64,000 nucleotides of DNA. Source: Selaginella tamariscina. Lineage: Eukaryota > Streptophyta > Lycopodiopsida > Selaginellales > Selaginellaceae. Shown piece by piece: positions 6,100 through 64,000 of this stretch. A program made the position numbers and the translations under genes. The stretch spans positions 310,001-374,000 of the forward strand of contig PUQB01000210.1 of assembly GCA_003024785.1 (NCBI GenBank), given 5' to 3'. Each line of letters opens with the position of its first letter. The first letter of the stretch is position 1. A model generated the notes under the pieces. That model was given only the letters and a program-made list of their open reading frames with translations. It was not told the DNA's origin and did no database searches.

Positions 6100-8110
6100 A
6101 TTTTATACTTATGACAACAAGCCCTTTTAAACCTCGAACAACAGTCTCTCAATTTCCAACCATATGTTTATATAATTCTGAGTAACCAGTTGCCTTATTA
6201 AACTTCTTTGGTTAAACCCATGTCACATATTTTTAATGCCATAAATAATAAACTCTTGTTCATTGAGTTGGGCATTCAATAGAATAGGGTTTGGTTGTCC
6301 TTCTAGGAGAAGTGGCTTTACATCCTCTCCACTTTTGAAAAGCATTAAGCCCACCACTCTTGTTCTAATGGCCATAACTTGTACTGTATAATAGGTATAC
6401 CATCTTTTATAGAGAAAAAAAAAATAATTGTAGTGGCACAAGGTGAACAGTTAAAATATACTCCTTAAGAAACTTTTTAAAGTTTGGCACCTTAGTCACA
6501 AGCAAAGCACAATTTTTTTTAGAGATGTAATTTTCAAAAAGATCCATCATATGTAATAAGGTAAGTGCACTTATCCTTTTTGTATAGTTGGAGACCTTAT
6601 TAAAGAATGCATCAATATTGACCAACCAATGTGATTATCTCAAACACACCTTTAGCAACAAGCATTGACAAGTATGCTAGCATATCTAGAAAATAAAAGT
6701 ATGAGCTTGAGAAACCCTTAACTAAAATGATTTACCTATTTTGTTGTCGCCTACACAATTATCCATCTGTAAAAGCAGATGACGAGAAAGCTTTTTGATG
6801 TTAAGGACACATATACACTATGTGAGCTACATCACAAGGCCATCTGTTTTTGTGCAGGCTGTTGACAGTGCTTTTTATATTCCCAAGTAGCCTCAAGTGT
6901 AGTCGTGTTATGAAAGTATTATATAAAGGTTGAAGATGTTGTTTTCATTTTAAGATTACCTATAGAACTTGTTTATGAGTGGGCTTTAAGGTTTCTGAAA
7001 CACATGGCCAACGACTCAATAGTGAAATTGGAGTTGTTAGACTAATGTGGAAGTAAAAAGTGTTTATATGTTTCACAACCGTGTCTATGTGTTAGCACGC
7101 ATGTCAATGAAATTGAAAGTTTTGTGACATTTCCAAGGCACTTTAATGTTGCAAATAACTTTTGAATGTTGGTCTTTGAATGATCCATCTTGTTGTGGAT
7201 TAAGCACATGTATTCTAACGGGCGTGACACAGAAAGCATGCGATGTGCATAGTACTAAGACCTGTAAGTTTGTTGTACAATCATGTGGGCCTTCATCTTC
7301 TTTTGAATGGCAATGATCTCCACAAGGTTTTTGCACAAGCCTCTGAAGTTTTTAATGATGTACAAGTGTCACACTTGGAAAAGCTAGAGTGTTTTGCAAT
7401 CTTCACATTCTTAAAACGAATATTTTATATGTCGTTGAAGGTACTAGTGTAGATTGTTTGAAGCCTCATCAAAATGAGGCACTTGTTTACACGTTCACAC
7501 AGCTTCAACTGAGTGAAGATTAAAGGCAAAACCTCTAGATTTTCCCTGACCCTTGCATTTGTGATATGACATCTGTGAGGCATCCTATCTGCATTTGCTT
7601 CCACAAAAGTCTTAAGTATTTCTATGGCTGTCATAATGTGAAAGTGGGTTTTGACTAGGCGAGTGTTCCCATGTACTAAGGTGCACGCTCCATTTAGCCA
7701 CTCATCCCTCCAGCAATAGAACGTGGTCTTCAGGATCTCGTATATAGTGTACCAAGTTTTGAAGCAAATGGACACCTTAGTAAATATCATGGATGTACTA
7801 TGATAACATGTGTCTAAGGCCATTCCATTAATACACCCACCTCCCAACCTCGATCTTATGAAGAAAGAGAATCACCTCATCCATCATAATAGGCAAGCCA
7901 TCATCTTATGAATTCGTATTAATATTTGTTTGTGACTTTACATTCTCTGTGTCAGTGTTGACTTCATTCATATTCCACAATACATGAGGACCTTTTTTAA
8001 ATTCCATTCTAGAAACCTCAACATGCTTGCAAATGGTGTTCACCCATATGTACACACAAGACACTTAAGCAATATTGTGACATGATACATTATCATCTCA
8101 ACTTTCACAG
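6100..8110 (-). pseudogene. Decayed transposase-like gene, second copy of the 61.97-64 kb gene
   Basis: The minus strand is colinear with the gene at 61,973-64,000. Matching blocks run from NMFNTRNKVYLIRKNEIVG (near 8190) through NGACTLVHGNTRLVKTHF and ILKTFVEANADRMPHRC (about 7590-7700), EYMCLIHNKMDHSKT (near 7170) and the region before the D-N-ENKN motif (near 6770). Because the other copy runs off the window, this one also shows the C-terminal part: IDAFFNKVSNYTKRISALTL and VPNFKKFLKEYI at 6450-6625. These segments match what I recall of a family whose members carry D-N-x-x-E-N-K-N and D-I-D-x-x-F motifs (I believe Pfam DUF7869). Multiple stops and frame changes show it is dead. The expected GHTHED residues before IDAFF are lost. 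Confidence 0.7.
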
Positions 8111-8364
8111 TTCCAATGCCAACTATCTCATTTTTCCGAATAAGATATACTTTATTTCTAGTATTAAACATATTGTGATGCACATAAATAATTGTGTCAT
8201 TTATAATATTTGTTTTTGCAATATGCAATATGTAATAAAATCTAAATCAAGGGTGCTTAATATATATGTATGTGCAATGACATATAATAATGTATAGAGA
8301 TAAATTCTTATGTTTAATTAATACAAGTAATAGTGGAATTAATTTCACCACCCTTTTCTTACCT

Positions 8365-8535
8365 TTTAAAATGATGAGCGGGATTAATCCTTCTCATAAC
8401 TCTCTTTAATAAAAAAAAAAGGTGGCAGGATTAATCCTTGTTTACAACTCTCTTTCACAAGGAAAAGGTTGGCGAGATTAACCCCGCCCTCAACTTTTTC
8501 GGATAGAGAAGAGGTGGTAAGATTAATCAAGAGGT
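8365..8535. repeat. Degenerate array of GGGATTAATCCC-type palindromes (4 units)
   Basis: Four decayed units are visible: GAGCGGGATTAATCC near 8377, GGCAGGATTAATCC near 8424, GGCGAGATTAACCCCGCC near 8472 and GTAAGATTAATC near 8515. They are about 45 bp apart. The array lies just upstream of the 5' end of the transposase-like pseudogene, the same relative position as the intact array at 61.0-61.8 kb. Confidence 0.75.
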
Positions 8536-19789: not shown

Positions 19790-22700
19790 CCATCACTTAA
19801 GTTTCCTGTACACATTCATCTTAATAATCGAGAGCTCATGGAGTTTGCCTTGTTAGACACTGGTGCAAATGCATGCTTCATGGATGACATTTTGCAACTC
19901 AACATGGCATTTCGGTGGTGAAGTTGAAGCGTGCAGTTCCTGTAGAGGTGGCCGATGGGCGTCTAATTGCTTCTGGCGCAGTTACCCATGCTACCGAACC
20001 TCTTTCCTGGCACATTCAACTGTTCAATTTCCTTCAACTTGATCAAGACTCGGTCGACTCCCATCATTTTGGGCATGCCATGGTTCGTTGTTGCAAATCC
20101 GCAGATCGACTGGAGGTCTAGGACGCTCACGTTTTCCTCTCCGACAGCTAGGATCAATCCTGTACCTTCCTGTGTGCAGGATACATCCTTAGTATCTGAG
20201 GCAGTACAAGCTACAGGATTGACCGTGCCTGTTCCTGTACCAGTGTTGAAGACTCCTCCTCGACAGGATTCACCTCATGTCAGTTCCTCAGCACATCCGC
20301 AGGCTCTCTCCACTCCTGTAAGTTTGGTTCCTGTACAGGGTTCTTCCAATCCTGTATCAGTGTCGAAGGTTCCTCCTCAACAGGATCCACCTCCTGTTGA
20401 TTCGTCAGCACATTCGCAGGCTTTCCCACTCCTGCGCAACCACGGACTCCTGTACAGGATTCTTCCAATCCTGTACACTCGTCAACATCCACACAGGTTT
20501 TTCCAATCCTGCCTCTTTCTGTTACCTGCTTCTGTTCCACCCCCCAAGATCCTTCCTCTTTTTCAGTCACAGCTCCCTCCTTCTCCTCTCCGAGTTCTTA
20601 CCACTACCATGCATGAACTCGCCACTGATCCTGCTCCTTTCCACCTTTTTGCCTTTCAAGTAACTCCTACGTCCTCTTCTACCTTTCCTGTATCCGACTC
20701 TCCTGTTTTTCAATCTCTCTCCTTCTCCTTCTCCTCCTTCTCCTTCTCCTCCTTCTTCTACCATCCAAGTACCACGACTTTTGACAAGCACAAGGCTGCA
20801 GTTCTTCCTGTTCACAGGTCCTACGACTGTCCTATTGATCTTGCGGAAGGAAAGACTCCACCGTTCGGACCGATTTATGCATTGTCACCCACAGAGTTGG
20901 AGGTTCTTCGTCAGTACATCGAGGACAACTTGGCATCCGGCTTCATTCGTCACTCAAAGTCCCCTGCAGGAGCCTATCTTCTTTGTCAAGAAGAAGGATG
21001 GGAGTTTACGTTTGGTTGTGGACTACAGGGGTTTGAATCAAGTCACCATTCGGAATCGGTACCCGTTGCCATTGATCCCGGAACTTCTCGATCGGCTGCG
21101 AGGAGCAAAGGTGTTCACGAAGATCGACTTACGAGGGGCCTACAACCTTGTACGGATTCGTCGGCGATGAGTGGAAGACTGCCTTTCGTACAAGGTATGG
21201 ACACTTCGAGTACACGGTGATGCCTTTCGGCCTTACCAATGCCCCAGCCGTGTTCCAACACATGGTGAACGACATCTTTCGTGACTTCTTGGACCAGTTT
21301 GTGGTGATCTACCTCGACGACATTTTGATTTTCTCCAAGGACCAGGCGGCACATGACAAGCATGTACGATTAGTTCTACAGCGGCTTCGCGAGCATGGCC
21401 TGTATGCGAAGTTGGAGAAGTGTTTTTTCGATAGGGATTCTGTGGAGTTCTTGGGCTACATCGTCTCTCCTGCTGGCGTTTCCATGGACATGCACAAGGT
21501 GAAGACCATCGTGGAGTGGGAGAGGCCCAAGTCTGTACGAGATGTACAATGTTTCCTTGGCTTTGCAAACTTCTACAGGCGGTTCATACAGGACTTCTCC
21601 AAGCGTGTACTTCCACTCACGGAACTCACCAAGCGCACAGGGTTTTCTCTTGGTCCGACAAGGCGGAACATGCATTCACAACACTCAAGGACGCCTTCAC
21701 GACAGCTCCGATTTTAGCACATCCTGACCCTTCTCGTCCTTTTTCGTTGAAGCAGATGCCTCGGATTTTGCAGTAGGATCCGTCCTATCACAAGTTGGAA
21801 GACAAGTTGCTTCATCCTATAGCTTTCACTCTCGTAAGTTCCTGTGGAGATAATTACGAGATTCATGACAAGAACTAAGGCCATTGTGGATTCGTTCGAG
21901 GAGTGGCGGCATTTCCTGGAAAGTGCTGCGCATCCTGTACAAGTTCTTACGGATCACAAGAACTTGAAGTATTTCCAAACGGCTCGAGTTCTCAGTCGCG
22001 ACAGGCTAGGCCCGGTTTTCGGAATGGCAAGGCGGACGCATTGTCTAGGCGCTCTTACCTTGCACCAAGCCCGGGCGATCCTGCATTTGACTGTCAAAGG
22101 CAAGTGTTGTTGGGTCCTAATCGATTCCGGCTTGCGGCACTGCAGGTTCATCAGGCTCCAGTAAATTCAACACTCCTATAAGACGTCCGTTTGCAGTTGG
22201 CTACAGACGACTTGGCAAAGAATGTGTTCTCACACATTCATCCTGACGTTGCAAGTTCCTCTTCCTCCAGTTCCCGTCCAGACTACAACCTGTTCACCAT
22301 ACAGGATGGACTCCTGTACCGGGAAGGTCTCCTGTACGTTCCTGTTGTTTCAGGACAGGATTGTCATGATACCCTGGCTACAGACATTTTGGTGTGGCCA
22401 AGACAGTGGAGTTGGTGACTCGCAACTATTGGTGGCCTGGGTTGCGAGTTTTGTAAAGAGGTTTGTACGGAGTTGTGACACTTGTAATAGGTCGAAGATG
22501 CCTCATCATGCACCCTCTGGTCTTCTTCGTCCTCTTCCTGTTCCTTCTGCTCCTTGGAGATCCATTTTATGGATTTCCTCACAGATCTTCCTCCTTCTCG
22601 TGGATTCGATGCAGTTCTTGTGGTGGTCTCATTTCCTACCCTGCAACAAGACAGCTACAGGTCAGACAACTGCCGAGTTGGTGATCCATGAGGTGTTCCG

Positions 22701-23560
22701 ACATCATGGTCTTCCTGAGAGCATTGTTTCCGATGAGGTCCACAATTCATGTCCAAGTTTTGGCGAGAGCTTCTTCGGAGTCTACAGGTTAAAGCGGATC
22801 TTTTTTAGGATATCATCCACAAACCGATGGGCAGTCCGAACGCACAATTCAGACCTTGGAACAGTATCTTGTTGCTTCATCAGTTACCAACAGACAATTG
22901 GTTGGACCTTCTTCCAATGGCAAAGTTTGCCTACAACAACTCCGTTCACGCATCTACAGGACAGACACCTTTCTTTGCTCTTACAGCCACCATCCACGTT
23001 TTGACTTTGCTCCTCCCGCTTCTCCTTCTTCCGCTCCTGCAGTACAGGATCGTCTCAGCATCTTCGTCAGGTACAGGATGATCTCCAGGTTCATCTTCAG
23101 CAGGCACAGGAACGATACAAGCATCATGCTGATGCTCATCGTCAGCCGGCACCTGCATACAAGATTGGTGATCTCGTGTGGCTTCTTCGTCGACACATTC
23201 GCACCAACATGCCTTCTTTTAAGTTGATTTTTAACGATTGGGCCCTTACAGGATCGTGGCAGAGGTAAATCCTGTAGCTTTCCGACTCGAGTTACCATCC
23301 ACGGTAAAACTTATCCTGTGTTTCACACCTCCTTGTTGGAGCCGTATCATCCTTCTTCTCTTCCCGGTCGTGTTTCTTCTCCTCCCCTCCTGTGGTCATT
23401 GACACTGAACCTGAGTACGAAGTTGTAGCCATCCTTGATTCTCGTCTTCATCGCCGCCAACTCCAATACTTGGTGGATTGGAAAGGGTATTTGCCTATTG
23501 ATTGCACTTGGGAATCTGCATCAACTTACTCCATGCTTCTTCCAAGGTTGCTGCCTTCCA
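19790..23560 (+). pseudogene. Pol of the chromodomain Ty3 element: protease, RT, RNase H, integrase, chromodomain
   Basis: Domains occur in the Ty3 order over several frames. They are an aspartic protease with LLDTGANACFMD (near 19,850), a Pro/Ser-rich linker (20,160-20,800), and reverse transcriptase with [31 protein letters not shown] and the catalytic YLDDILIF (near 21,310). RNase H follows, ending [15 protein letters not shown] (near 21,940). The integrase has a CDTCNRSK zinc region (near 22,480) and a core with [20 protein letters not shown] (near 22,815). The chromodomain reads [25 protein letters not shown] (quoted in part; 23,415-23,495), placing it among chromoviruses. Multiple frame changes show it is defective. 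Catalytic residues of RT and protease are still present. Confidence 0.9.
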
Positions 23561-47745: not shown

Positions 47746-50700
47746 TGGTATCGGAGGCAAGGTTCGAGATGAGTGCCTGGTGGATACCACCTATGTGGAG
47801 ACGTTGGACACTGAAAGGCAAATTGTCCAAGGAGAAGCAAGCCCAAGGGCAAAAGTTTCAATGGCAGCAAGGACAAGTAAATGCTTAAGAAGCTTTAGGA
47901 GATGGAGCGTGGAGAGGAGCACAAAGGAGACTTCTCTAAACCACAAGGTAAATTTCTATTTGTTCTTGCTCATTAGGTAAATTATATGGCACGGGAGGAG
48001 TCACACACACGTGCTATTATGGTGGAGGGACGACTGGTGAGTGTCTAGTGCGAGTCCTTGTGGATAGCATGAGTAGTGATAACTTTGTGTCAACAAAGTT
48101 AGTGGAGGAGTGTAGCTTGCCCACAAAAGACTGTGCCTCAATATGAATTTGAGGGCTCATCTATCACACAGAGCTATAATGCTTGTGTGGAGGAGTTACA
48201 ATTGTAGGTTGGCAAAACCTAACTGGTGGAGCTGCATGAAGACTGTGCCTCAATACAAGATTGAGGGCTCAGCTATCACATAGAGCTATAGTGCTTGTGT
48301 GGAGGAGTTACAGTTGTAGGCTAGTAAAACCCAGCTGGTGGAGCTGCACAAAGACTGTGCCTCAATACGAGATTGAGGGCTCAACTATCACATATAGTTA
48401 CAATGCTTGTGTGTAGGAGTTACAGCTGTAGGTTGGCAGAACCCAGCTGGTGGAGCTGCACGAAGATTGTGCCTCAATACGAGATTGAGGGCTTAGTTAT
48501 CACACATAGCTATAATACTTGTGTGGGAGGAGTTACAGCTGAAGGTTGGCAAAACCCAGCTGGTGGAGCTGCACGAAGATTGTGCCTTAATACGAGATTA
48601 AGGGCTTAACTATCACACAGAGCTATAGTGCTTGTGTGGAGGAGTTATAGATGTAGGTTGGCAAAACCCACCTGGTGGAGTTGCACGAAGACTGTGCCTC
48701 AATACGAGATTGAGGGCTTAGTTGTCACATAGAGCTAAATTGCTTGTGTGGGAGGAGTTACAGCTAGAAGTTGGCAAAACCTAGCTGGTGGAGACTTTCT
48801 TCTTGCGGAGCTAGTGTGTGTGGATCCTAAGATCTAGTGGAGCACCAAGCACATGAAGCTTGAGTATAGTGAAGTCAAAGACATTTGGTTTGAAACAAAT
48901 CTTAAGTCTCCAAACAAGTTCTTTTACTGTCACCTTAAGCAAAGCTGTTGTGCGAGGAGTTTGCTAACGTCTTCCCTCTCGAGCTACCTCATGGCTTACC
49001 ACATGCAAGAGGTGTAAAGCATGAGATTGTGTTGGAACAGGGTATGAAAGCCATTTACTGTAAGCCATTCCAACTGAGCCATGCTAAAGGAGCAAGAGGT
49101 TAAGAGACAAGTGATGGAGCTATTGGAATATGGCTTCATACAACTGAGCAAGTCTCCATTTGGTGCACTAGTATTGCTTGTCAGGAAGAAAGATGGCACC
49201 ATGAGGATGTGCATAGACTATAGAGCTCTCAACAAGTAAACAGTGAAGGACAGGATGCCCATGCCACGTGTGGATACTATCATGGATCATCTCGGTGGAG
49301 CCAGAGTGTTCACCAAGATAGATTTGCACAGTGGGTATTATTAGATTGTTGTGAAAAGAGGAAGATATTTACATAACTGTTTTCAACACTAGCTTTGGGC
49401 ATTTCAAGTTCACTGTTATGCCATTTGGCTTAACAAATGCCCCAGTCACATTCACTCGGTTGATGACTGAGGTGTTTGGTGACTACTTATATGACTTTGT
49501 GAAGATCTTCCTCGACAATATTCTTATTTACAATAAGAATATGAAGGAGCATGTGCAGCATTTGCAGCATTTGCGAAGAGTTCTTTAGTTGTTGAGGGAG
49601 AACAAGCTCTATACAAAGAAGAGCAAATGTGCACTTGCTCAGTATGAAGTGGAGTATTTGGGTCACATTGTGACGCCAAGTGGAGTGAAGATTGATCCAC
49701 AAAAGGTGGTAATGGTGAAGCAATGGCCAGTTCCTAGCAATGCAAAAAAGTTACGGAGTTTCTTGGGCATGGTTGGTTATTATCAGCGGCATGTTAAGGA
49801 TTATGCCAAGAAAGCTTCTCTGTTAACTAGGTTGTTGAGGAAGGACGTTCCCTTTGCATGAAGTGCTTGAGAGGAGCAGTTTCCAAGCTTTGAAACAAGC
49901 TTTGGTACGTGCACTAGTTTTATGTATTGCAGATCTCTAGTATCGTGTGATGCAAGTGGAGTGGCCATTGGAGTTGTACTTATGCAAGAGGAAAGGCCTA
50001 TTGCTTATGAGAGTCGTACTTCTTGCATAGCAACATACTCAACGTATGAGCAAGAATTACTGGCTATTGTTAATGCATTACGAATTTGGAGGCACTATCT
50101 TTATGGTGCAAGTTTCAAGGTGTTTACAAATCACAAGCCTTTGGTGTATTTGTTCACATAGAAAGAGTTGTCAATAAGCTCGTTAGATGGTTAAGCTCAT
50201 GGATTTTGGCAAATTTCTTATTGAGCATCGTGCGGGGAAGGTTAACGTGGTGGCAGATGCTTTGTCACGTGTTAAGAGAGCCACCATAGTTGGAGAATTC
50301 CAAACACGCTTATATAATGCATTAATAAGGACGGTCAATGAGTTTAGCCATGTAGTTCAACATGCTCAAGCACATTGTAATACAAAACTCCATCTTGAAA
50401 TGAAAATGGTTGCTCTAGCTATCCTTTGAGCTCGTGTATCTTCCTCGTGTGGACCATTTGATCAACCAGGTACTATATTTTCATCATGATCGCCCGGAGG
50501 TTGGTCATTTTGGGGAGAGGAAAACGTATGAGTTGATCAAGAGGAGGTTCTATTGGAGGAATATGAAAGATGATATTATAGAGTACTACAAGACTTGTGA
50601 CAAGTGTCAGCAAGTAAAGGTGCCCAGGGAGAAACCAGGTGGGCTATTAGTACCATTGCCTATTCTGGACAGGCAATGGGGCAGTATCTCTATTGACTTT

Positions 50701-51060
50701 GTCACTTAATTGCCAAGGACACAGTGGCATTGGAATGAGTCCATACTATGCTATGTTTGAACGGCATACCAAGACAGCTTTTGAGTTGGGTTTAGCAAGT
50801 AAGAAAGCTCAAGGCAACATGGATGAGAAAGCTAAAGATCTGAGTGTTGAACTTAGAAACATTCAGAGTTTGTGCAAGAAGAACTTACAAGCAGTTCAGA
50901 GCCGAGCTATCAAGTTTGTTAATGAGCACATAAGCTTCCAAGAGTTCTAGGTGGGAGATTATGTATATCTCCGAGTGGTATTTGTCACACATGTAAGGCA
51001 AAACACTGTTATGGCCTTACGGAAGGGACACAATGATAAGTTGTCTCCTAGGTACTCAGA
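47746..51060 (+). pseudogene. Ty3 element III: protease, RT, RNase H, partial integrase (decayed)
   Basis: The order is normal for Ty3. A protease-like VDSMSSDNFVSTKLVEE lies near 48,060-48,120, with the active-site Gly replaced by Met. The RT has [20 protein letters not shown] then [15 protein letters not shown] (49,130-49,240) and ARVFTKIDLHSGYY. Its catalytic box reads FLDNILIYN (near 49,510), where YxDD is expected. RNase H follows (VSCDASGVAIGVVLMQEERP, YEQELLAIVNALRIWRHYLY). The integrase zinc domain reads FHHDRPEVGHFGERKTYELI ... CDKCQQVK (50,480-50,620). The reading then jumps near 50,705 to a distal segment (GMSPYYAMFERHTKTAFELG), so most of the integrase core is deleted. The RT Asp-to-Asn change and internal stops show it is dead. 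Confidence 0.8.
48129..48801 (+). repeat. Six-unit 112-bp tandem repeat with hairpin motif inside Ty3 element III
   Basis: Units start at 48,129, 48,241, 48,353, 48,465, 48,578 and 48,690, each beginning GACTGTGCC or GATTGTGCC. Each contains a hairpin of the form CCTCAAT-5 nt-ATTGAGG. Most units also contain CAGCTGGTGGAGCTG, a second short stem. The unit length is 112-113, so the repeats cannot preserve a reading frame. They lie between the protease-like and RT-like regions. Confidence 0.92.
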
Positions 51061-51588
51061 TGTACGTTGTAACTAAAGTGGGCATGATACGTGAAAATGG
51101 GAATATAAAATAAATTACTAATTAATACTTAAGTTTTAATTATTAATTAATCATTTAATTAATATGTAATTAAGCCTTAAATATTAATTAATTAATTAAT
51201 TAATCCTTCAATAACCTTACTTAGTAAGGAATATTCCTAAAATATCTTAGAATATTCATATTATTCTAAAAATAGTTTACAAAATGAAGAAATACTATCA
51301 AACATAATTACAAATGAAATCATTTTCTTATCAACATGTTAATTTTTTATAAATACTTTCTTCTAATACAAGAAATCTCTCATTTTGTCTAAATCATCAC
51401 TCTCCGGATTAATCAAATCATTTTGGTCAATATCTTGATGTTGTTGCCACCACTTAACACTCTCACGAATGCAATTGGGAGTTGCCATCCTTGTTAATAC
51501 ATAAGATGTAATAGAAGGTCTGCATAAAGGCTCATCTAAAAATGACGTTCCTTAAGAATAATATTATAAAGCGCCCGGTTGCTATCCT
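51061..51588. other. Spacer with AT-rich element similar to the MITE-like ends
   Basis: GTAACTAAAGTGGGCATGATAC at 51,069 and the following TTAATTAATAC-rich stretch resemble the element at 40,958 and the end at 5,115. A TTAATTAATTAATTAA-type run lies near 51,185-51,205. No gene is seen. Confidence 0.4.
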
Positions 51589-52300
51589 TCATTTTATAAA
51601 ATTCAAAATCACGAGAAAGAAAAGCTTCAGGAAATGTATGATACGGTGGATACTGCTCACAAAAATTTTCGAGATTCTTCTTTCTAGGCACGTATCCAAG
51701 TAGTTCACTAGCTCATCCATGATATCGGTATCAGAATATGGATCGAAAGTGATTGGATGAATACAAGCAATGTTTTGGTTGAGCATAGCCTTCTGAGGAG
51801 AGTCGTCTACTACTAAGATATGTGCATTCTTCATTATCCTTAAGCGACTGATCTCCCCATGAGTCCCAATTATTCTTTCATTCTTGAAGAAGTATGGCTT
51901 GCTTTCCTTTCTATATTGTGAAATTCGAGAGGTTTATAACATATTCGCTGGTCAAAAATCCAATCTTTACGAATCACCTCTTCTGCAACACTACAATGTT
52001 TCTTAAGCAAATTCAACAGCGGTGTTAAGTTATGAATCTGCATGCATGACCAAATCCCCACAAGCGCACCCATCTCCTTAAGCTTTTGAAAGAGACGATC
52101 CAACCCTGGACGAAAAATAATATCATATCGAAATTTACCATGACAAGGAATGAAATCTCCTTGTTTGATTTCTTTTTTCCTATCCTCGGGCCTTTGTCGA
52201 TGAAGCAGAACACCATTGACATCCAACAACACAATATGGCCATGAGTAACATGGATAGCGTTGCCTCTTGAATACTTTGCAAATCACTTGTTTGCTCCCT
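51589..52300 (-). CDS. FCP1/NIF-like HAD-family phosphatase, frame-broken
   Basis: This is a HAD-superfamily domain of the type that dephosphorylates proteins such as the RNA polymerase II tail. On the minus strand, VLLDVNGVLLHRQRPEDRKK (near 52,225) has the nucleophile Asp, but Asn replaces the second Asp of the DxD motif. IIFRPGLDRLFQKLKEMGAL, then VGIWSCMQ, follows. Further on, WIFDQRICYKPLEF and, after a one-base frame change near 51,895, PYFFKNERIIGTHGEI are read. Then comes HILVVDDSPQKAMLNQ (the VDDSP motif) and FDPYSDTDIMDELVNYLDTC. All FCP1-like motifs are in order. The D-[IV]-N-G variant occurs in a plant subgroup I recall. The start is uncertain; upstream of 52,235 there are stops. 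Confidence 0.65.
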
Positions 52301-52971
52301 TTCACATTTATCCGTTGACTATATCGTTGCCTATCCCTTCATCATTTAATTGTACATCATCCTTACAAGATTCAGATATTGCATGCTGAAGAAATTGATT
52401 TCGGAACTGAAGCCAATAAAAATGATGATGAAAAACGAAGTGGCCCCATGGTAACGATGTTTTGAGCTGCATTATTATCCATTTCCTGCATGAACTCTGT
52501 CATTCTGACATGTGGCACAAGAAATTGTCGCCAAACCCCTCTCTTACCTCATGGCAATGCTGAAAATCCATGTTCTCAATGTTTCATTACATCTGCAAAA
52601 TGATAATTAGCTGACCTTAAAATTATCAAGGTATATTATTTACCTTGTTAATGTGTGACCCATGTTTGAACTAAAAGCTTCATTAATCCTTGAGAATTTA
52701 TTTTCTGTACAAATATAAACGAAATATACAAAAATGCCTTATGTTACACTCATTTACAACTATTCGTCACTCTAACATTCAATAATTCTTCTTCGCTATT
52801 ACCTTCTGAGTGAGAAGAAGAAGGTCTAAGCCGCTTGTGAGATGGTTCAAGATCTTCTTTTCTATTGATGTTTCCATATGTGAATGTTCTGTACTCCTCG
52901 AGATAACTTCCGGTCTAATATTGATTGAAGTTCGTCCAGACTCCGACATTGAACCAGATTCGTCTTCAGAG
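52301..52971. other. Spacer between the HAD-like and ParB-like genes
   Basis: Some minus-strand stretches (for example GPLRFSSSFLLASVPKS near 52,430) could be upstream exons of the HAD-like gene, but joining them is uncertain. Nothing else is recognised. Confidence 0.3.
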
Positions 52972-55852
52972 CTATCGCACTTCTGGAGGGAACTTTCTCA
53001 AATACTCCTTTATGGATTCGTTGGGGTACTCAGTTGAGAACCTATCTATCCACTTGTTCAGGTCCTCAACCATGGTCTTATCCTTTTCAACGGCAAACAC
53101 ACATGTATGCCGAAGGTAACACTCCTTCAAGACGGACCCCCTAGTGCAGTAGTCAAAAACCCACGCATCACTGTGAGGACCCCTGATCAAGTTGACGATG
53201 CTCCGTGCCGCTTGACTTGTAATGTTTGGATAACGTACATTGCCGAATACGTCACTCACCTATCGGTGTATCGGATGGAGGTTCAGGGCCGTTGGAGTGC
53301 AAACAGATGCCTGGCCAGTCATTTGGAAGCTTGAAATTGTTTGGCGCATTCCTAACAACCAAGTGAACAACGGTATCAATGCACTTGGGATTAGCATCGT
53401 TCATATAAAATCCTGTCCAACGATGTCTATTCTTCTTGGCGAAGGCGAAGGCAAAAGTATCGGTGACATGAGCAAGAATCAAGAAATAAATACCTGAAAA
53501 AGTAGGTATCAGTGAAGAGCGCAAGCATGAATTCAATAATAAATACCTTCTATGTATATGCTTGCACGGCTAAGTTTCTCCACCAGATCCTCTAGTGCCC
53601 TATCTGTCGAAAGATTTTTTGACACCCGCCGATCCATCACGAACAATTGAAACGGTTTCCTACAAGCAGTGATGTTACCCCATAAAGTCTCCGAATCTAA
53701 CAACAAACATCTGTAGGGCTTGTCGTGATTCGTAGCATCCTCCTTTATAAGGTTCAATTCGGTTCTCCGCTGCTGAAGGACTGCCATAAGAGAAGGCGTC
53801 ATCCCAATGTTCTCCTTTTTGGCGTTGGCGTGCAATAGATTCTTGCCTAGATCTTCCGATTGGTTCACCCATTCGACAAGCATATCATCGTTCGTCACAT
53901 GCAAATATTTGCTGACCTCTTCATATGTTGAGTCGAGGTCCAACCCAGTTTGTGGCAGTGTATTCCCAACCACTCCTTGAAATGCCTGACCGTCTTCAAC
54001 TCCATTGCCTTGAGATGAAAAGGAGAGGTTGGGCTGCTGTTATTAATTTGTAGTTTGCCATCGATCACCAAATCAGCCAAGACTTCCATCTCCTCCATCG
54101 TTGTTCCATTTAAAGGCTTCAACCATGTGAGCTTGAAATCGTTGTCTACATCCTTTGTAGATTGAACAGACTTAGCCTTCGGCGTCTTACTGGGTTTCTT
54201 TGCAGACTTTCTGAGGGCTCCCCTTCACTTGTCTGCTTCTTCTTCAGTGTTCCTTTTGAAAAGGATTCCATAATCCCCAACCATTTGGCAAAGATCCTAT
54301 CTTCGGGGCAAGAAATCAACATCATCAGAAAGGATGTTTCCTTCCCGCCCACCTGGGCAAAATCAACTGCTGCAATTTCTTCAACTCTCTGAGAAAAAAG
54401 ACAGATTAATATACCGGCGAGATAAATCCCGCCCAACAATTTGCTTACCCGGTAGTTCGCAGATTGTGTATTCCTGCAGTAGCTCTTTGTGGTCGCTCAA
54501 GAGATTCCCACACGGATCGCGTGTGTTTAAACTTCTCCCATATTTTGCTGTTGTAGTGGTTGGTGTCGGCAGCGTCCCATTCCGCCGATAACTTATGGTA
54601 CTGCTCGATTGTGAGATTCGGCTTAGCTAAAAACGCCGATCTTTTTGTCAGCTTCTCACGGGTATGCTCGGAAAGTTTTGTTGCCATCGTTCCTTTGTTG
54701 TGTTCATCGAGAAGTCGTTGGGCTGCCGTTATTGTGTGCTGGCCACTAATGATGTAGTACTTGATAGATTTTCTATTCTCCGTCTGAATCTTCATGAGTT
54801 GTTCTGGTGTTGTGATCCAGACTTTGTCAGCGCCCTTCCTTCTTTCATAGTATGGACACAAAACAGCATTATGTGGAACGGTATAAGAATTGTCGTCCTT
54901 CATCTTCTCCATGAGCTCAGCTACACGTTCCTGGTTGAGTGGCCTGTAATTGAAGTTTGGGTTGACGCTGCAATATTTAACCCTACAAGGATAAATCTTT
55001 TCATCCAACATCATTTCCTTGTGACTTATTGCAGCATGAGATGCCACAGGTGCAGCTGACAAAACGATTGATGATTTTCTTTTGCGATCCGAATCAACAT
55101 GTGTGATCCCCGACTGCAGCTGTTCTAGTGTTCTCGGCACACTCTTCCAGCTCCCGAAGCTTCCTAAGCAAATTGAACGTGATCTGTAGAGAACCTGAGA
55201 CCGAGCCACCCTCTCAATCTCCCTTATGATGTCGCTGTGTTCTTCTTCAATGTGAAGAGGGACGATTGCTCCACTTGTGGATGTTCTATATTGAAGCAAT
55301 CTCTGCTGAAAATACACCTACTCGATGAGTCTGAAGATCTTCGAAGTAGACATCTAATTGGATCCCCTCCATAGATGGGCTTTCGTTGAGCTGAAGAAGA
55401 ACTCCACGGTCAACATCATTAGTGAACACGTGAACATCATTATCCACAAGTCGACAACACCACCCGAGATTATTGTTGTAACTGGCGACCTCTGGATCCG
55501 AGAACGTGACATTGGATGGCAAGGCATATCTGTCGAGAATCGTCCAATCTGGGTTCGCAGCCTGCTTTCGGGTGCTTGACTAGCGAATCTACTTTCCATT
55601 GTTTTGCTTGTCCATGAGATGTGACAGAGGTTAATTTGACAGCAACCATGGTTGCTCCAATGCGCTTCCCATTTATCTTAAAATATGGCCAAGTTGATTC
55701 CAGAATCCCCCTGCCCATCTCTTCTCCTGCTCTCGTCTTCAATGTCACCTCAATTCCACATCTGTATACAACAGTATTTAATTCTTCAAGCACATATCCG
55801 AGTATAACAGATTTTATTTTAATTCTTACCCTGAATTTGACGACGACTCCAT
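52972..55852 (-). CDS. ParB-like domain protein with possible methyltransferase-like C-terminus (frame-broken)
   Basis: The start at 55,852 (MESSSNSG) is followed by an intron and an exon with GIEVTLKTRAGEEMGRGILE and YFKINGKRIGATMVAVKLTS. The middle (54,445-55,317) has NYRPLNQERVAELMEKMKDD and KYYIISGQHTITAAQRLL, the signature of a ParB/sulfiredoxin-type fold. The next exon begins VEEIAAVDFAQVGGKETSFL. The C-terminal half (52,972-54,120) includes YRCLLLDSETLWGNI, DTFAFAFAKKNRHRWTGFY and WVFDYCTRGSVLKECYLRHT then CVFAVEKDKTMVEDL. The last stretch resembles the S-adenosylmethionine-binding part of DNA methylases (D-x-C-x-G-S followed by an acidic residue). ParB plus methylase fusions are known in phages and bacteria, so this reading is inference. 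At least four one-base frame changes occur (near 55,560, 55,315, 54,215 and 54,010). An intron at about 54,380-54,445 contains the array palindrome. Confidence 0.65.
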
Positions 55853-56228
55853 ACTAATCACTGAATCTCCTTATTTGATTAAATCGTCCTTCTGCAAAAT
55901 AATACACTATGAATACAATTTATATAAAAACGCACAAACACTTGTCTAAACCCGAATATACAAAAATAATACACTGATAAATTCACATACACCTGAGAGA
56001 AGTGGACAGGATTAACTGTCCGAAGCTAACATTTGTGATAGTGCAAAAAACTGATAACATTTGGTTTTAGAACCACCACAAATGTGAGCTTTGGACAGTT
56101 ATACATGGTTTACTGGCTTTTACTCAAAATATTATGATAAGCAAAATATTATGATAAGATGATAAAAGTAAACAAAATGAGATATGCAACTTATATATAG
56201 TCATAAACATATATATTCACATGGAAGG
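55853..56228 (-). promoter_or_regulatory. Upstream region of the ParB-like gene with a 26-bp imperfect inverted repeat
   Basis: Arms at 56,012-56,037 (AACTGTCCGAAGCTAACATTTGTG) and 56,077-56,102 are near-perfect reverse complements separated by about 39 bp. This could form a hairpin or represent a tiny foldback element. The palindrome array starts at about 56,229. No other feature is seen. Confidence 0.5.
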
Positions 56229-57145
56229 TGCGGCGGGATTTATCTCGCCACATCTTTTATGCCTCCTAAAAGAGTGGGCGGGATTAATCTCGCCACCTTT
56301 CTGGAGGCCCTGAATGGGTGTGCGGGATTAATCCCGCCACCTTTCTCGTTCTCAGAGAGAATTGGGCAGGATTTATTTCTCACACCCCTTCAGGGGCTCC
56401 AGAAAGGCGGCGGGATTAATCCCGCCCACCATGTAAGGCATGGTGAAATTAATCCCACCACCCTTCTCAGTTCCCTCCATTGGTATTTTGTAAACCTTTC
56501 CGTCTCAGACAGAGTTAGTCGGGATTGATTCAACATACCAATGGAGGAAAAAAAGAAGGGTGGCGGGATTAATCCCGCCAATCCGCCACCGATAGAAGGT
56601 TCGGAGAGATTAATCCCGCCGCCCTCTCGTAAATCATGCGCTCACACATATATATTGGCTGCGGGATTAATCCCGCGGCATTTTGAACAGGGATGGGTGG
56701 GGGCGGGATTAATCCCGCCGCTTATATCCTGCGGAAGTGCCTGAGCGGCGGATTAATCCCGCCGCCCTCCGCGAAGGGCATGAGCGTGGGGCGGGATTAA
56801 TCCCGCCGTTCATGTCCTGCGTGAATTCCCTGGGCGGCGGATTAATCCCGCCGCCTTACGCGCAGGACATGTCATGCAGGCTCTTCGGTTAGCCTTCCGT
56901 GCAGGATCTTTCATGCAGGCTCTTCGGTTAGCCTCATGAGCGGCGAATTAATCCCGCCGCCCATCCCCTGTAAATGCCCTGTGCGGAATCCGGTGGGATT
57001 AATCCCGCCCATTAGGGCCTTCACACATGCCATTGCCGGCGAGATAAATCCCGCCGCATTCCGCGCAGGGCATGGGTGGGCGGCGGGATTAATCCCGCCG
57101 CCTTCGGTTTATCCTAGAGCGGCGGGATTAATCCCGCCGCTCGAG
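56229..57145. repeat. Palindrome array 1: about 19 units of GGCGGGATTAATCCCGCC
   Basis: Units lie near 56,231, 56,278, 56,321, 56,367, 56,409, 56,442, 56,520, 56,562, 56,607, 56,662, 56,703, 56,748, 56,791, 56,838, 56,943, 56,990, 57,039, 57,077 and 57,120. Most keep the full palindrome; some have GGATTTATCTC or GATAAATCCC variants. Spacers of about 20-30 bp are GC-rich and partly duplicated (TCATGCAGGCTCTTCGGTTA occurs twice, 56,873-56,935). The array is upstream of the divergent ParB-like gene. Open frames across it (GLIPPP or GGINPA repeats) are translation artefacts. Confidence 0.95.
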
Positions 57146-57212
57146 GCTTAGCGTGTGTGCAAGAGATAAAATTAATAAATAAAAAAATTATACAGATAAA
57201 AACACACACATA

Positions 57213-57255
<43 letters not shown>

Positions 57256-57698
57256 GTATAGGAGTGTACGTGTGTGTGCAAGAGATAGATAAATAAATAA
57301 AATTATACAGTACTGGTACACATAATATATGTGTGTTATATGTACATAGGTATATATATGTGTGTATATGTATATCGTGTGTATGCGTGTGAGCGAAACA
57401 AATAAAATCATACAGATAAACAAACACACACACACACATATATATACACAGGAGTGTGTGTGTGCGAAAGATAAAACTAATAAATAAATAAAATTATACA
57501 GATAAACACACACATATATATGTGTGTATATAGATATATAACCCATAGAGAAAGAGAGAGAGTCTGTGAATATATAAGCATATATATAAACTAGTGTTGT
57601 ATACTATTGTTAATATGCATTGATTATATATAATATGTGTGTGTGTGTGTGAAAGCAGTGTGCGTGTGTGTGGGAGAGATAGATCAATAAAAAATTAT
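57146..57698. repeat. Tandem microsatellite-rich units
   Basis: About three to four imperfect units of 100-130 bp recur. Each has AATAAATAAAATTATACAGATAAA followed by a (CA)n run and ATATATATGTGTGTATATA, in consensus form. No gene is seen; the sequence enters a run of Ns at 57,699. Confidence 0.7.
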
Positions 57699-58471
57699 NN
57701 NNNNNNNNNNNNNNNNNNNNNNNNNNNNNNNNNNNNNNNNNNNNNNNNNNNNNNNNNNNNNNNNNNNNNNNNNNNNNNNNNNNNNNNNNNNNNNNNNNNN
57801 NNNNNNNNNNNNNNNNNNNNNNNNNNNNNNNNNNNNNNNNNNNNNNNNNNNNNNNNNNNNNNNNNNNNNNNNNNNNNNNNNNNNNNNNNNNNNNNNNNNN
57901 NNNNNNNNNNNNNNNNNNNNNNNNNNNNNNNNNNNNNNNNNNNNNNNNNNNNNNNNNNNNNNNNNNNNNNNNNNNNNNNNNNNNNNNNNNNNNNNNNNNN
58001 NNNNNNNNNNNNNNNNNNNNNNNNNNNNNNNNNNNNNNNNNNNNNNNNNNNNNNNNNNNNNNNNNNNNNNNNNNNNNNNNNNNNNNNNNNNNNNNNNNNN
58101 NNNNNNNNNNNNNNNNNNNNNNNNNNNNNNNNNNNNNNNNNNNNNNNNNNNNNNNNNNNNNNNNNNNNNNNNNNNNNNNNNNNNNNNNNNNNNNNNNNNN
58201 NNNNNNNNNNNNNNNNNNNNNNNNNNNNNNNNNNNNNNNNNNNNNNNNNNNNNNNNNNNNNNNNNNNNNNNNNNNNNNNNNNNNNNNNNNNNNNNNNNNN
58301 NNNNNNNNNNNNNNNNNNNNNNNNNNNNNNNNNNNNNNNNNNNNNNNNNNNNNNNNNNNNNNNNNNNNNNNNNNNNNNNNNNNNNNNNNNNNNNNNNNNN
58401 NNNNNNNNNNNNNNNNNNNNNNNNNNNNNNNNNNNNNNNNNNNNNNNNNNNNNNNNNNNNNNNNNNNNNNN
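57699..58471. other. Assembly gap (run of N)
   Basis: The sequence is unknown here. Both edges are microsatellite-like, so the gap probably reflects unresolved simple repeats, and its true size may differ. Confidence 0.99.
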
Positions 58472-59689
58472 AATTATACGCACACTCCTATACATATATA
58501 CATACATACACACACACACACACAGATCTCACCTGTGTGGACAGCCGCCGCCGCCGATTTCACAGCCGCCGCCTCTTGAAACCCTAAGAATATACCTAAA
58601 CCCTAAAGGAATTAAATATATATATCAACCCTAATAGAATATTCCTTCTGAGAATATACTTAAACCCTAAAAAGAATAAAATATAGATTCGCCCTAAACG
58701 AATATTCTTTTATTATATTATTAGCGCGTGCGTGTGCGTGGGTGTATCACATACACCTCAAAAATATAAATCATGCAGGGATTTAACATGTGTGTGTCCA
58801 TGAGAGTGTTAAAGTTTCATGTGTATCAATACATACATACACATTGCATATATTAATACACATAATATATACATACACACGTGTATACACACAGACATAC
58901 ACACATATTACATGGGTTTAGGGTTTAGGGTTTAGGGTTTTGGATTTAGGATGGATCATGCATGGTGTGTATGTATGAGAGAAGAGAGAGTGTTGAAAAA
59001 TTATTTTTGTACACATTGCATATATTAGTACACATATATACTTACACATATTATACACAGATATACATACATAGTATATGAAGAGAGAGACAGTACATAT
59101 TATGGATCATGCATGGTGTGTATTATACACACAGACATACATACATATTAGTACATAATATTAGAGAGACCGAGTACATATTATAGATCATGCATGGTGT
59201 GTATGTTTGAGAGAAGAGAGACAGTACATATTAACATGGATCATGCATGGTGTGTATGTATGAGAGAAGACAGAAAGTACACATATATACATACAGAGTA
59301 CACATATACATACAGAGTACACATATATACATGCACACGTGTATACACACAGACATACATACATATTACATGAGTAAATTCATTGTGTTACATATTAGGG
59401 TTTAGGGTTTAGGGTTTAGGGTTTGCTCCCAACAAGCTTAATATAAATATTACACATGTAAATTCAATGTGTTACATACAGTCACACAGATTGAGTACAT
59501 ATATCATACATGCGTTGAACATGATGTTTTCAATAAAGAAGCAACCTATTTCTTCAGTTTGGTTTAGGGTTGTGCATGTGTGTGCATATGTGTTTTTGTA
59601 AGTTCTTGTAATGCGTGTGTAAATTTATGATTGTGTTTATATATGTGTGCAAAACAAACATCGAATAATTAAGAAAATAAAATTAATAA
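58472..59689. repeat. Telomere-type repeats and GATCATGCATGGTGTGTATG-bearing repeats
   Basis: Short (TTTAGGG)3-4 tracts lie at about 58,917-58,938 and 59,398-59,426, with scattered AAACCCTAA words at 58,580-58,680. A segment containing GATCATGCATGGTGTGTAT recurs near 58,952, 59,104, 59,187 and 59,233, each time followed by GAGAGA or CACACA runs. No coding signal is seen. Confidence 0.7.
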
Positions 59690-60415
59690 ACACACTAGGA
59701 ACATATTTTAAATTATACATAATAATATATGATTTTATCTAATATATAGCCATATATAGTTTTAATAATATAATTAATTTAATATTGATAAAAAGGTTTA
59801 ACATTGAAATATTCTTGAAATAATAAGAAATTAATTGAGAAAATCCCATTAATATATACAAATGTAAATTAAGTACTCAAATAATTAACTAAATTAATTA
59901 TCATAATCATGTTTAATATTGGAATATTCTTGGAATAATAAGAAAATAATAAAGAATATCCCATTAATATAAAGAAGATTAATTACTCAAGTAATTAAGG
60001 AAATGATATTAATATATATATTATTAAAACTATATATGACTATATATTAGATAAAATGATGTATTATTATGTATAATTTAAAATATGTTCATAGTGTGTA
60101 TTAATTTAATATTGATAATAAGGTTTAACACATGAATATTCTTGAAATAATAACAAATTAATTGAGAAAATCCCATTAATATATACAAATGTAGAATAAT
60201 TACTGCAATAATTAAGAACAAGACTAATTTAATTATGATAATCAGGTTTAATATTAGAATATTCTTCAAATATTAATAAAATATTAAAGAATATCCCATT
60301 GATACTAGGAAATGAAAACTAAATACTCGAGTAATTAAGAAAATAATAATAATAAACAGACTATGAATATATTTTAAATGATACATAATAATATATCAAT
60401 TTATTTATTGTATAA
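59690..60415. repeat. AT-rich repeat block with ~80-bp inverted arms (foldback-like)
   Basis: The arm at 59,690-59,771 (starting ACACACTAGGAACATATT) is a near-perfect reverse complement of 60,019-60,099. A partial third copy in direct orientation starts near 60,352. Between and beyond the arms, a unit with TTTAATATTGATAA...GAATATTCTTGAAATAATAA...GAGAAAATCCCATTAATAT recurs four times (near 59,772, 59,910, 60,105 and 60,247). Confidence 0.8.
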
Positions 60416-61018
60416 GTATATTTTATATATATATATAATATAAATATACTTGAATACTAAGAATGTAGAATATAGTCTAAAATTTCGTAATATTAAACAG
60501 CTTGAATCACTTGAATAACATTAAATGCAATTTTAAAATACTCATTGGAACTGGAGAGTATATATGTCAGAGTGTCGGATATTTGTGTCAACTCATCTTA
60601 AATTTTATTTTCTGTTCTTTTTAAAAAATTTGAATTTCTGACATATGTATTGTCGGTCTGACATGTAAATTTGAAAATGCATTTAATTTCCCACTCAAAT
60701 TCAGATCTGGTTCTTTCTCCGGCAAGGGTTTCTTCATTTCTGTATTTTTCACTCTTTAGATCTTCTTTTTTCTTCATAGTGATCATCTCAGGAGCGAGAT
60801 TAAATTGGGTGCTATTTTTATAGGAAAGCACGGCGCCTTCAGTGCTGTTTACAAGTAAGTATTATAAACAAATTTAAAAATACTTATTAAGATTCACTCT
60901 CTTACATTCTCTCTTAAAATTACAATTTAGGGGTTTAGAAATGCATTAGGATTATAATATATTCCGTTAGGGATTTATCACGTTTAAATATCCTTTTAAC
61001 TTAATATTCTAGGTTAAC
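60416..61018. other. AT-rich spacer before array 2
   Basis: No gene is recognised. The stretch at 60,640-60,850 is less AT-rich, but open frames there show no family resemblance. Confidence 0.35.
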
Positions 61019-61835
61019 CGGGCGGCGGGATTAATCCGGCCATTTCTTTTTCGCCTCTTTGAAGAAGTGGCGGGATTAATCCCGCCACCATCTCCCGGGC
61101 AATGCTTCTCCGCCACTGAAAAAGAGTGGCGGGATTAATCCCGTCGATAACCTTCTCAACTGATGAAGAGTTACCAGAATTTATTAGAAAGAGTTGTCGG
61201 CGGGATTAATCCCGCCAACCATTTTAGGAGGCAGGGAAGGGGTGGCGGGATTAATCTCGCCACCACTTCCCTGTTTTAAAGATTTGGGGACAGGATTTAT
61301 CCCGAGATCTCTTTGAAATCATAGTTTTGGAGAGAGTTATGTGCGGGTTTAATCCCGCCACCATTCCCCGTCGTAAGAATTGTGGCGGGATTAATCCCGC
61401 CTTGGACTCCCTCCGACAAGGAAGAGCCGGCGGGATTAATCCCGCCGCCTCTTCCTCCGACGAGGAAGGGAGTCCGGCGGGATTAATCCCGCCGACTCTC
61501 TCCGGCGAGGATGAGTCGGCGGGATTAATCCCGCCGGACTCCCCCCGAGAGGAAGAGGCGGCGGGATTAATCCCGTCGGACTTCCTTGGGAGGAGTCCAA
61601 GGCGGGATTAATCCCGCCGACTCTTCCGAGCTGTTGAGTCCGGCGGGATTAATCCCGCCGGACTCCCCCCGAGGAGGAAGAGGCGGCGGGATTAATCCCG
61701 CCGGCTCTTCCTTGTCGGAGGGAGTCCAAGGCGGGATTAATCCCGCCGACTCTCTCCGAAGGGTTGAGTCGGCGGCGGATTAATCCCGCCGCCGTTCCTG
61801 TCGGAGGGATCGTGGGCGGGATTAATCCGCCCATC
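61019..61835. repeat. Palindrome array 2: about 18 units of GGCGGGATTAATCCCGCC
   Basis: Units lie near 61,022, 61,068, 61,127, 61,199, 61,243, 61,290, 61,343, 61,384, 61,429, 61,474, 61,519, 61,559, 61,602, 61,641, 61,684, 61,731, 61,771 and 61,815. From 61,384 on, the spacing is regular at 39-47 bp and most cores are perfect. Spacers are GAGGAAG/CTTCCTC-rich and often themselves palindromic. Two 75-bp stretches (61,384-61,458 and 61,673-61,747) are exact reverse complements. The array ends about 140 bp before the transposase-like gene. Confidence 0.95.
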
Positions 61836-61972
61836 AGTTGTATTAATCAAACATGAGATATTATCTCTAACATAATTATGTATTATTGCATATGCATATT
61901 ATTAAGTAACCGTAATTCAGATTTCTTAAAAATATTGCATAAACAGATATCATAAATAATACAATTATTTAT

Positions 61973-64000
61973 GTGCAGGACAATATGTTTAATACTAGAG
62001 ATAAAGTATGTCTTCTTCGGAACAACGAGATAGTTGGCACTGGAACTGTGGAAGTTCGAGATAATAATGCATCATGTCACAATATTTCCCAAGATCTTGT
62101 GTGTACGTTATGGGTGAACACCATTTACAAGCATGTTGAGGTTCTGGGAATGGAATTTGAGGAGGGTTCTCCTGTATTGTGGAATTTGGATGAAGTCAAG
62201 GCTGACACAAAATATGCAGAATCACAAACAAATAGTAGCACGAGTTTACCAGATGATGGCTTGCCTGCTGTAATGGATGAGGTATTCTCTTTCTTCGTGA
62301 GATTGAAGTCGGAAGAGGCATCATCACAGCTATAAATCCAATGGAAGCAGTGTCAGAAGAGAAACTAGGGTCCGACTTCGTGGGTGTAGTTGTGACAGAG
62401 GTTTCACCTAATGGCACATTGTATCCTGGATCCCTCGTGAGGTGGCGAACATCTGAATTAAGACGGCAAGATGGTTCAACATATTCTGGGTTGGATTTCA
62501 ATAATAACAACCCGGAAGAACAACTCATATTTGAAGAGGTTCCTTGCATTGGTCCTATTGTAAGAAAAAGGCGATTCATGGGTTGTAGATCTTCCCCTGC
62601 AAGTTTCAGCAAGAGGGTAAAGATGGATCCTACATCTTCCGAAAGTGTTACGAGCATTTCCACGATTGACTGTTGCAAGAAGAAGTGTTGTCAGATGGCA
62701 GACCGGAATGAAATTACCCAATGTAGACATGTCTTTCGTATGCTCACCCAAAAGCAAAGGCATGAGTTTGTATATGCTGCACTAACTGGGTGTATTGATG
62801 GAATGGCCTCGGACACAGGTTATCAGAGTACATCCATGGTATTTAATAAGGTGGCCATCTGCTTCAAAGCTTGGTACAGTATATACGGGATCCCAAAGAC
62901 CACGTTCTACCGTCGGAGGGATGAGTGGCTAGATGGAGCGCGAACCTCAGTTCATGGGAACACTGGCTTGGTCAAAACCCGCTCTCACATCATGGCAGCC
63001 ATAGAGATACTCAAGGCTTTTGTGGAAGCAAATGCAGACAGGATGCCTCACAAATGCCGAACCACAAATGCAGGGGTCAGGGAAAATCTCAAGGTTTTAC
63101 CTTCAATCTACACTCAATTGAAACTGTGTGAACATGTGAACAAGTGCCTCAGTTTGATGGGGCTCCAAGCAATCTGCACTGGTACCTTCAACAACATATG
63201 GAATACTCATTTTAAGGATGTGGAGATTGCAAAACACTCTAGCTTTTCTAAGTGTGACACTTGTACATCATTGAAGGCTGCAGAGGCTTGTGCAAAAACC
63301 TTGGTGGAGATCACTACCATTCAAAGGAAGATGGAGGCCCACATGATTGCACAACAAACTTGTCGGTCTCAGTACTATGCACACCGCATGCTTTCTGTGT
63401 CACGCCCATCAGAGTACCTGTGCTTGATCCATGACAAGATGGATCATTCAAAGACCAGCATTCCAAAGCTCTTTGCAACACCAAAGTGCCTTGGAAATGT
63501 CATGAAACTTCCGATTTCTTTAACAGGTGTGCTAACACATGGACACGGTTGTGAGTCATATGGACACTTTTCACTTCCACATTGGTCTAGCGACTCCAAT
63601 TTCACTATTGGGTCGTTAGCCATGTGTTTCAGAAACCTTGAAGCCCACACAGACAAGTCCTATCAGTGATCTCAAAGTGAAGAAACAACACCTTCAACCT
63701 TTACATAATGCTCTCATGAACACGTCTGCACTTGAGGCTACTTGGGAATATGAGAGGCATTGTCAGCAACCTGCACAAAAAAAGATGGCCCTGTTGAGAG
63801 TTCAGGTTCAGTGGAGGGATCTAGCTCAAATAGTGTACATGTGTCCTCAACATCAAATAAGCTTCCTCGTCATTTGCTTTTACAGATGGATAATTGTGCA
63901 GGCGAGAACAAAAATAGGTAAATCATTTTACTTAAGGGTTTCTCAAGCTCATACTTACTTTTATTTTCTAGATATGTGCTAGCATACTTGTCAATGCTTG
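61973..64000 (+). CDS. Transposase-like protein with D-N-ENKN motif (partial, runs off the window)
   Basis: The frame opens after a 3' splice-like site (TTATGTGCAG) near 61,979. The first segment (to 62,335) gives CLLRNNEIVGTGTVEVR...EGSPVLWNLDEVK, which resembles a domain seen in plant En/Spm-type transposases (weak resemblance). The second (62,341-63,669, 442 residues) has paired basic and Cys-rich segments (IDCCKKKCCQM), RRRDEWLDGARTSVHGN, KCDTCTSLKAAEACAKT, LCLIHDKMDHSKT and LTGVLTHGHG. After a frame change near 63,665 come LPRHLLLQMDNCAGENKN and, across a likely intron (63,919-63,970), RYVLAYLSML. The D-M-D-H-S-K-T and D-N-C-x-G-E-N-K-N motifs mark a family with an RNase H-like transposase look (I believe DUF7869). 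The stop at 62,335, followed at once by an ATG, and the later shifts suggest early decay or unseen introns. A dead copy lies at 6.1-8.1 kb. Confidence 0.7.

Follow-up and report, generated by a model that had tools for sequence, protein, structure and literature searches.

Arrays of an 18-bp palindrome at the starts of two divergent genes in a high-copy element of Selaginella tamariscina: possible sites for an element-encoded activator

What maintains the same 18-bp palindrome in two dense arrays, each placed at the start of one of two genes that point away from each other? We examined this question in a stretch of 64,000 nucleotides from the lycophyte Selaginella tamariscina (GenBank assembly GCA_003024785.1, contig PUQB01000210.1, positions 310,001 to 374,000 of the forward strand), hereafter the window. 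The arrays lie inside a high-copy element with terminal inverted repeats that is very probably a class II DNA transposon. The explanation that we favor, tentatively and with a little less than even confidence, is that the arrays are bound by a protein which the element encodes and which activates the element or relieves its silencing; we infer the binding protein, its identity and the activating or anti-silencing outcome alike. The features on which the argument depends are as follows, in window coordinates.

51060 to 64000, continuing to about 65604 (L031 position 5604), no strand assigned: high-copy terminal-inverted-repeat element, delimited by copies elsewhere whose matches begin and end there
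51060 to 51087, plus strand: left terminal inverted repeat, ATGTACGTTGTAACTAAAGTGGGCATGA, with its partner at about 65577 to 65604, beyond the window
51589 to 55853, minus strand: left gene region, several frames grouped by strand and order, decayed in the window copy
51870 to 52232, minus strand: NIF/FCP1-like phosphatase domain, PF03031 (E 7e-9)
54416 to 54433, plus strand: lone degenerate palindrome site, GGCGAGATAAATCCCGCC, within the left gene region and at the identical place in other copies compared
54445 to 55317, minus strand: left-gene exon with the motif YIISGQHTITAAQRL
56232 to 57138, plus strand: left palindrome array
57139 to 61023, no strand assigned: AT-rich spacer of 3.9 kb between the arrays, with microsatellites, short TTTAGGG runs and 773 N at 57699 to 58471
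61024 to 61832, plus strand: right palindrome array
61985 to 64000, continuing past the window, plus strand: putative transposase-like gene with a DUF7869 domain (Pfam PF25273), its frame interrupted in the window copy
63918 to 63971, plus strand: probable 54-bp intron of the DUF7869 gene, read from the sequence

The palindrome, GGCGGGATTAATCCCGCC, occurs in the window at 34 sites with up to three mismatches, where shuffled sequences give an expectation of 0.01. Thirty-two of these fall in the two arrays (15 left, 17 right), and the other two are strays at 8471 and 54416. When up to four mismatches are allowed, each array contains 17 sites, with 6 perfect copies in the left array and 10 in the right (16 in total). 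The first-pass annotation had reported about 37 units in two arrays; the arrays are real and the count was slightly high. Intervals between sites are most often 44–45 bp (136 of 330 intervals). Also as first described, each array is upstream of one of the two divergent genes: the last site of the right array ends 152 bp ahead of the in-frame ATG at 61985, and the first site of the left array is about 0.4 kb ahead of the point, near 55.85 kb, where the left gene probably starts. Between the arrays, the telomere-like short TTTAGGG runs lie at 58914–58950 and 59395–59424.

The units within an array share their core far more than their spacers. We compared 20 arrays, each with at least eight sites and at least five regular units. 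Mean within-array identity was 0.88 for cores, a figure biased upward by the choice of sites for likeness to the core (up to five mismatches), versus 0.55 for spacers in their better orientation and 0.46 for shuffled spacers. The pattern held in all 20 arrays, bearing out the earlier observation that the core is kept while the spacers differ, and supporting the view that it is the core rather than the whole unit that seems to be maintained. Among 369 sites, the central six bases were 97.9% conserved versus 91.0% for the outer twelve, and changes at paired positions were mostly one-sided. Pair 5/14 had 88 one-sided changes versus one compensatory change, with 42 changes breaking the pairing and 46 keeping a wobble. 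The compensatory cases at pairs 3/16 (four) and 4/15 (ten) may be shifted or inherited cores. Perfect cores are often bordered by GGC and GCC, which lengthens the palindrome. Among the copies compared, 38 of 107 single-mismatch cores carried A in place of G5 or T in place of C14, a change at the outer C of CCG that may come from decay through CHG methylation or from tolerance of substitution there. Changes at positions 9/10 were T to A in 95 of 100 cases among the matches listed. Parts of the arrays gain or lose units from copy to copy. A search for spacer inversion through recombination at the symmetric cores gave no clear signal (13 inverted-similar versus 19 direct-similar among 216 neighbor pairs).

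The first-pass annotation proposed a genome search for the 18-mer. Across 300,702,823 bases in 1391 contigs we found 27,128 perfect copies, and the reversed control sequence gave none. Over the first 2.084 Mb of contig C1 there are 11 array loci with perfect sites, and 10 of them carry fragments of element genes. Two rough estimates of the number of element loci follow: about 1,400, from scaling 10 loci per 2.084 Mb, and about 2,000, from the 27,128 perfect copies at about 13 to an element (140 sites over about 10.5 element equivalents among the copies compared). Searches with the two genes gave at least 95 scored genome places for the DUF7869 query, of 6403 candidates, and at least 135 for the left exon, of 5833.

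To relate sites and genes in position, we used the full list of single mutants at positions 8/11 and the matches listed for other single-mismatch sites and for the two genes, on contigs with both kinds of match; the counts in this paragraph apply to those matches, and a site near both genes was counted twice. A single-mismatch site and a gene lay within 8 kb of each other in 41 cases, and in 35 of these the site was upstream of the gene. The six others all come from a single cluster on contig C21, located 5.6–5.8 kb downstream of a left exon and past the expected element end. The upstream sites recur at set distances: 0.8–1.0 and 4.8–5.9 kb upstream of the DUF7869 gene, and 1.3–1.6, 2.1–2.3 and 6.3–6.5 kb upstream of the left exon. 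Where the two genes are no more than 12 kb apart, all 15 pairs are divergent, with a spacing of 7.0–7.7 kb; at 12–60 kb there are seven pairs, of which only one, spaced 15.9 kb apart, is divergent; the other six have the arrangement expected of neighboring elements.

Both arrays are present in all eight copies that span both array positions. Where examined, the arrays track the two gene families, lie in non-coding DNA and are confined to the element, the exceptions being one orphan cluster on C1, described below, and the lone degenerate site at 54416. Two alternatives raised at the outset, that the palindrome is spread at random relative to these genes or belongs to an ordinary satellite family, do not hold on what was examined.

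The element itself was delimited with copies on contig C1 and in the DNA that adjoins the window on its right. Five complete copies, 13.6–14.8 kb long, end in imperfect terminal inverted repeats of about 28 bp (ATGYACGTTGTAACTAAAGTGGGCATG / ATGCAAGTTGTAACTAAAATGGGCATG); in the window copy the right repeat is partly changed. In all 11 further left ends the sequence GTTGTAACTAAA is kept, ATGTAC precedes it in eight of the 11, and the flanks differ. We looked for target duplications in 11 copies, the five complete ones and six more (a seventh, C602, was dropped because its left end lay outside the sequence retrieved for it), allowing three right boundaries. Candidate duplications of at least 4 bp were found in four of 11 copies, whereas mispaired flanks gave two in 110 (p 0.0005 by permutation); those of at least 3 bp were found in seven of 11, whereas mispaired flanks gave 14 in 110 (p 0.00005 by permutation). 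Four of the 11 copies have none. The right half of the element (61831–65604) is 96–99% identical between copies, and the left half (51060–56219) is more divergent (about 94–96%, falling to 88% over a segment of a single copy). Possibly, this contrast reflects recombination between lineages or differing constraint.

Several other sequences related to the element, or lying near it, were seen. An older inverted relic of its right half, with about 82% DNA identity, occupies window positions 5128–8488 and holds just two degraded palindrome sites (8377 and 8471). A second copy in the opposite orientation begins at C517:378794 (L031 position 8794, running into L032) and has 97.9% identity across 4.2 kb of the right part; its right end points toward that of the window element, at a distance of about 3.2 kb. 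At C1:897001-937000 (L041–L044), two element copies 18.6 kb apart share their right flank, which suggests a tandem segmental duplication. Outside the element, the window contains a tandem array of about six copies of a 112-bp unit (48127–48793) and, at 19967–23004, open frames that we take to resemble a Ty3-type retrotransposon polyprotein.

The right gene had been called transposase-like. It carries the DUF7869 domain and may be a transposase. The match to PF25273 has an E-value of 2.5e-5 in the first window frame, under the curated cut-off, 4.4e-27 in the next exon and 2.3e-50 in the homologue P0003, one of eight homologues (P0001–P0008) recovered from a large protein set. The homologues share the motifs HDKMD, DNxxxxNKN and HTHxDxD, whose acidic residues are candidate residues of a DDE enzyme, and they also have pairs of conserved Cys residues as well as a possible helix-turn-helix. 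A PDB sequence search with the DUF7869 protein gave no match. A text search of the papers available found no occurrence of DUF7869, and so no transposon family described under that name; nor did it find the 18-mer, or pieces of it 16 and 14 bases long. A literature search for new transposon superfamilies led to one report (PMC10045372), which had no bearing on the present element.

The left gene is less easily placed. Two other copies have open frames of 603 and 630 amino acids over the first part of the region. Judging by strand and order, 51589 to 55853 likely forms one gene that includes the middle part with the ParB-like motif as well as the NIF domain, which in another element copy (L048) reaches an E-value of 3.1e-10. 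Among seven copies, changes in the left exon show a clear excess at third codon positions; the DUF7869 gene shows a weaker excess, in parts of the gene. The left protein had no match in a set of 5.8 billion proteins. The label ParB-like, and with it the suggestion of parS-like sites, found no support in the profile searches: we found no significant ParB match for the left protein in Pfam, NCBIfam, PHROGs, PDB sequences or phage records. The likeness of YIISGQHTITAAQRL to ParB/Srx is at the level of the motif only. The usual signature of ParB proteins is GxRR, and this signature is absent from the left protein.

An array at each of the two gene starts suggests control of two promoters, and the conserved center and one-sided changes fit a dimeric protein that reads double-stranded DNA better than they fit a hairpin. 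The sequence shows the element and its ends, its high copy number, the divergent gene pair, the fixed place of the arrays, and the likeness of the cores with their constrained central bases. In favor of an element-encoded activator we count the 27,128 perfect copies, the divergent gene pairs, the presence of both arrays in all eight copies, the upstream position of the sites, the kept cores and conserved central bases, the single-mutant counts, the gain and loss of units, and the third-codon excess of changes. Several observations weigh against it. In the left gene, profile searches found no DNA-binding domain; in the right gene, their only such match is a weak one to HTH_psq (E 0.17). The genome-wide counts of single mutants of the 18-mer (1,782 at positions 3/16, 1,646 at 9/10 and 78 at 8/11) take in inherited copies of one mutation, and CpG C-to-T decay inflates the count at 3/16. 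On C1, an orphan array cluster at 2070604-2072018 (L048) stands alone, as the 6.8 kb examined there contain no fragment of an element gene; the cluster sits just to the left of a complete element. Finally, in the half of the right array that could be aligned across 10 copies, substitution between copies was 0.038 in cores, 0.047 in spacers and 0.040 in the flank. As these rates are alike, no purifying selection is seen on individual sites after insertion. We read them, tentatively, as neutral decay of inserted copies, while selection would act in the lineage of those that are active.

Those rates, together with the gain and loss of units between copies, are what one would expect if the arrays were a neutral satellite growing by slippage and without a role. 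Yet a neutral tandem repeat would homogenize core and spacer alike, the two differ in identity in all 20 arrays, and mutants at positions 8/11 are rare genome-wide (78), so that we regard this explanation as very unlikely. An unlikely, though less remote, alternative is that the arrays serve not transcription but the transposase or the replication of the element, as a transpososome enhancer or an iteron origin. Dense palindromic repeats inside a mobile element that also carries a transposase-like gene would suit such a role, as would the Cys pairs and possible helix-turn-helix of the DUF7869 homologues, together with the weak HTH_psq match of the right gene. Against it, a separate array at each gene start suits promoters better, and the arrays lie 4–5 kb from both ends of the element, with no site of up to three mismatches near either end. 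The same distances give no support to the initial suggestion that these are subterminal transposase sites.

The protein that binds might instead belong to the host, with the element exploiting a plant transcription factor: any activator that binds as a dimer could use a palindrome set densely ahead of both genes. However, on the stretch of C1 described above, where this was examined, the perfect core occurs almost exclusively in the element, and one family that the first-pass annotation had in mind fits poorly. The consensus of plant E2F factors is WTTSSCSS, and inspection of the 18-mer did not reveal it. We consider a host factor distinctly unlikely. Still less can be said for a core that works by folding into a hairpin, whether in RNA or in single-stranded DNA. 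Inspection suggests that folding could give a stem of 7 bp and a loop of TTAA, but the bases that would form this loop rank among the best conserved of the core, stem changes are mostly one-sided, and at pair 5/14 the changes that break pairing are about as frequent as those that keep a wobble; such a role seems highly improbable. We give as little credence to a ParB-parS-like partition or centromere system. The left gene does contain a GQHTxTAA motif, the sites are palindromic, and VirB, a relative of ParB, is reported to recognize a palindrome, to spread and to counter silencing (PMC10653881). Against this stand the negative profile searches, the missing signature and the lack of a ParA match in the element frames scanned by profile.

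For a self-activating element there is a plant precedent, in contrast to the initial statement that no described plant system with such a layout was known. VANDALs are MULEs, and our scan found no VANC or MULE protein in the element frames examined, a subset of all frames, in which only DUF7869 and NIF matched. For the Arabidopsis element VANDAL21 it is reported that VANC21 binds a 9-base motif, YAGTATTAY, densely arrayed in a single orientation in the non-coding parts of the element, and that the repeat regions, one of them upstream of VANA21, change in unit number between copies (PMC5735166). VANC is reported to cause loss of DNA methylation (PMC5735166, PMC10398659). Both systems are plant transposons with dense, family-confined motif arrays in non-coding DNA, including upstream of an element gene, and in both the number of array units varies between copies. 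They differ in that the VANC21 site is a 9-mer in one orientation and the present site an 18-bp palindrome, and in their genes, VANA, VANB and VANC there and a DUF7869 gene and a NIF-domain gene here. By sequence, then, the layout and apparent logic resemble VANDAL/VANC whereas the proteins and site geometry differ, and by analogy the present element would work like VANC/VANDAL without being a member of that family.

Two further systems share parts of this arrangement. VirB of Shigella, an anti-silencer of the ParB superfamily, loads at a palindromic site and relieves the silencing of nearby genes (PMC10653881). The palindromic site is shared with the present arrays, for which relief of silencing is proposed; unlike the present system, VirB is bacterial, the available portion of that source reports no dense arrays, and the tie of the left protein to ParB is a resemblance of motif. 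In the Spm/En family, the transposon-encoded TnpA binds many short subterminal repeats and affects the expression of its own element. Many short repeated motifs are common to both, but they are at the ends in Spm/En and internal, at gene starts, here.

Under the self-activation that we favor, the arrays would be dense promoter-proximal sites for a dimeric protein that binds double-stranded DNA sequence-specifically. The binder would most likely be a product of the element itself, from either the left gene or the DUF7869 gene. Once bound, it could keep both divergent promoters active against host silencing, and the element would thereby govern its own expression in cis and, across its many copies, in trans. 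A bolder version, possible though on the doubtful side, is that this is a second plant anti-silencing system that evolved independently, in which the own protein of a DUF7869 transposon holds the element promoters open through tens of thousands of palindromic sites and so enabled its spread to what we estimate as a thousand loci or more. That protein might be the one with the NIF/FCP1 domain, acting on RNA polymerase II.

The element provides a genomic home for DUF7869, a name absent from the literature texts searched. Its 27,128 perfect natural sites could serve to map the specificity of one DNA-binding protein. If the proposal is true, sequence-specific self-activation through motif arrays would have arisen more than once in transposons, with other proteins and another site geometry, and the arms race between silencing and anti-silencing would become testable by comparison.

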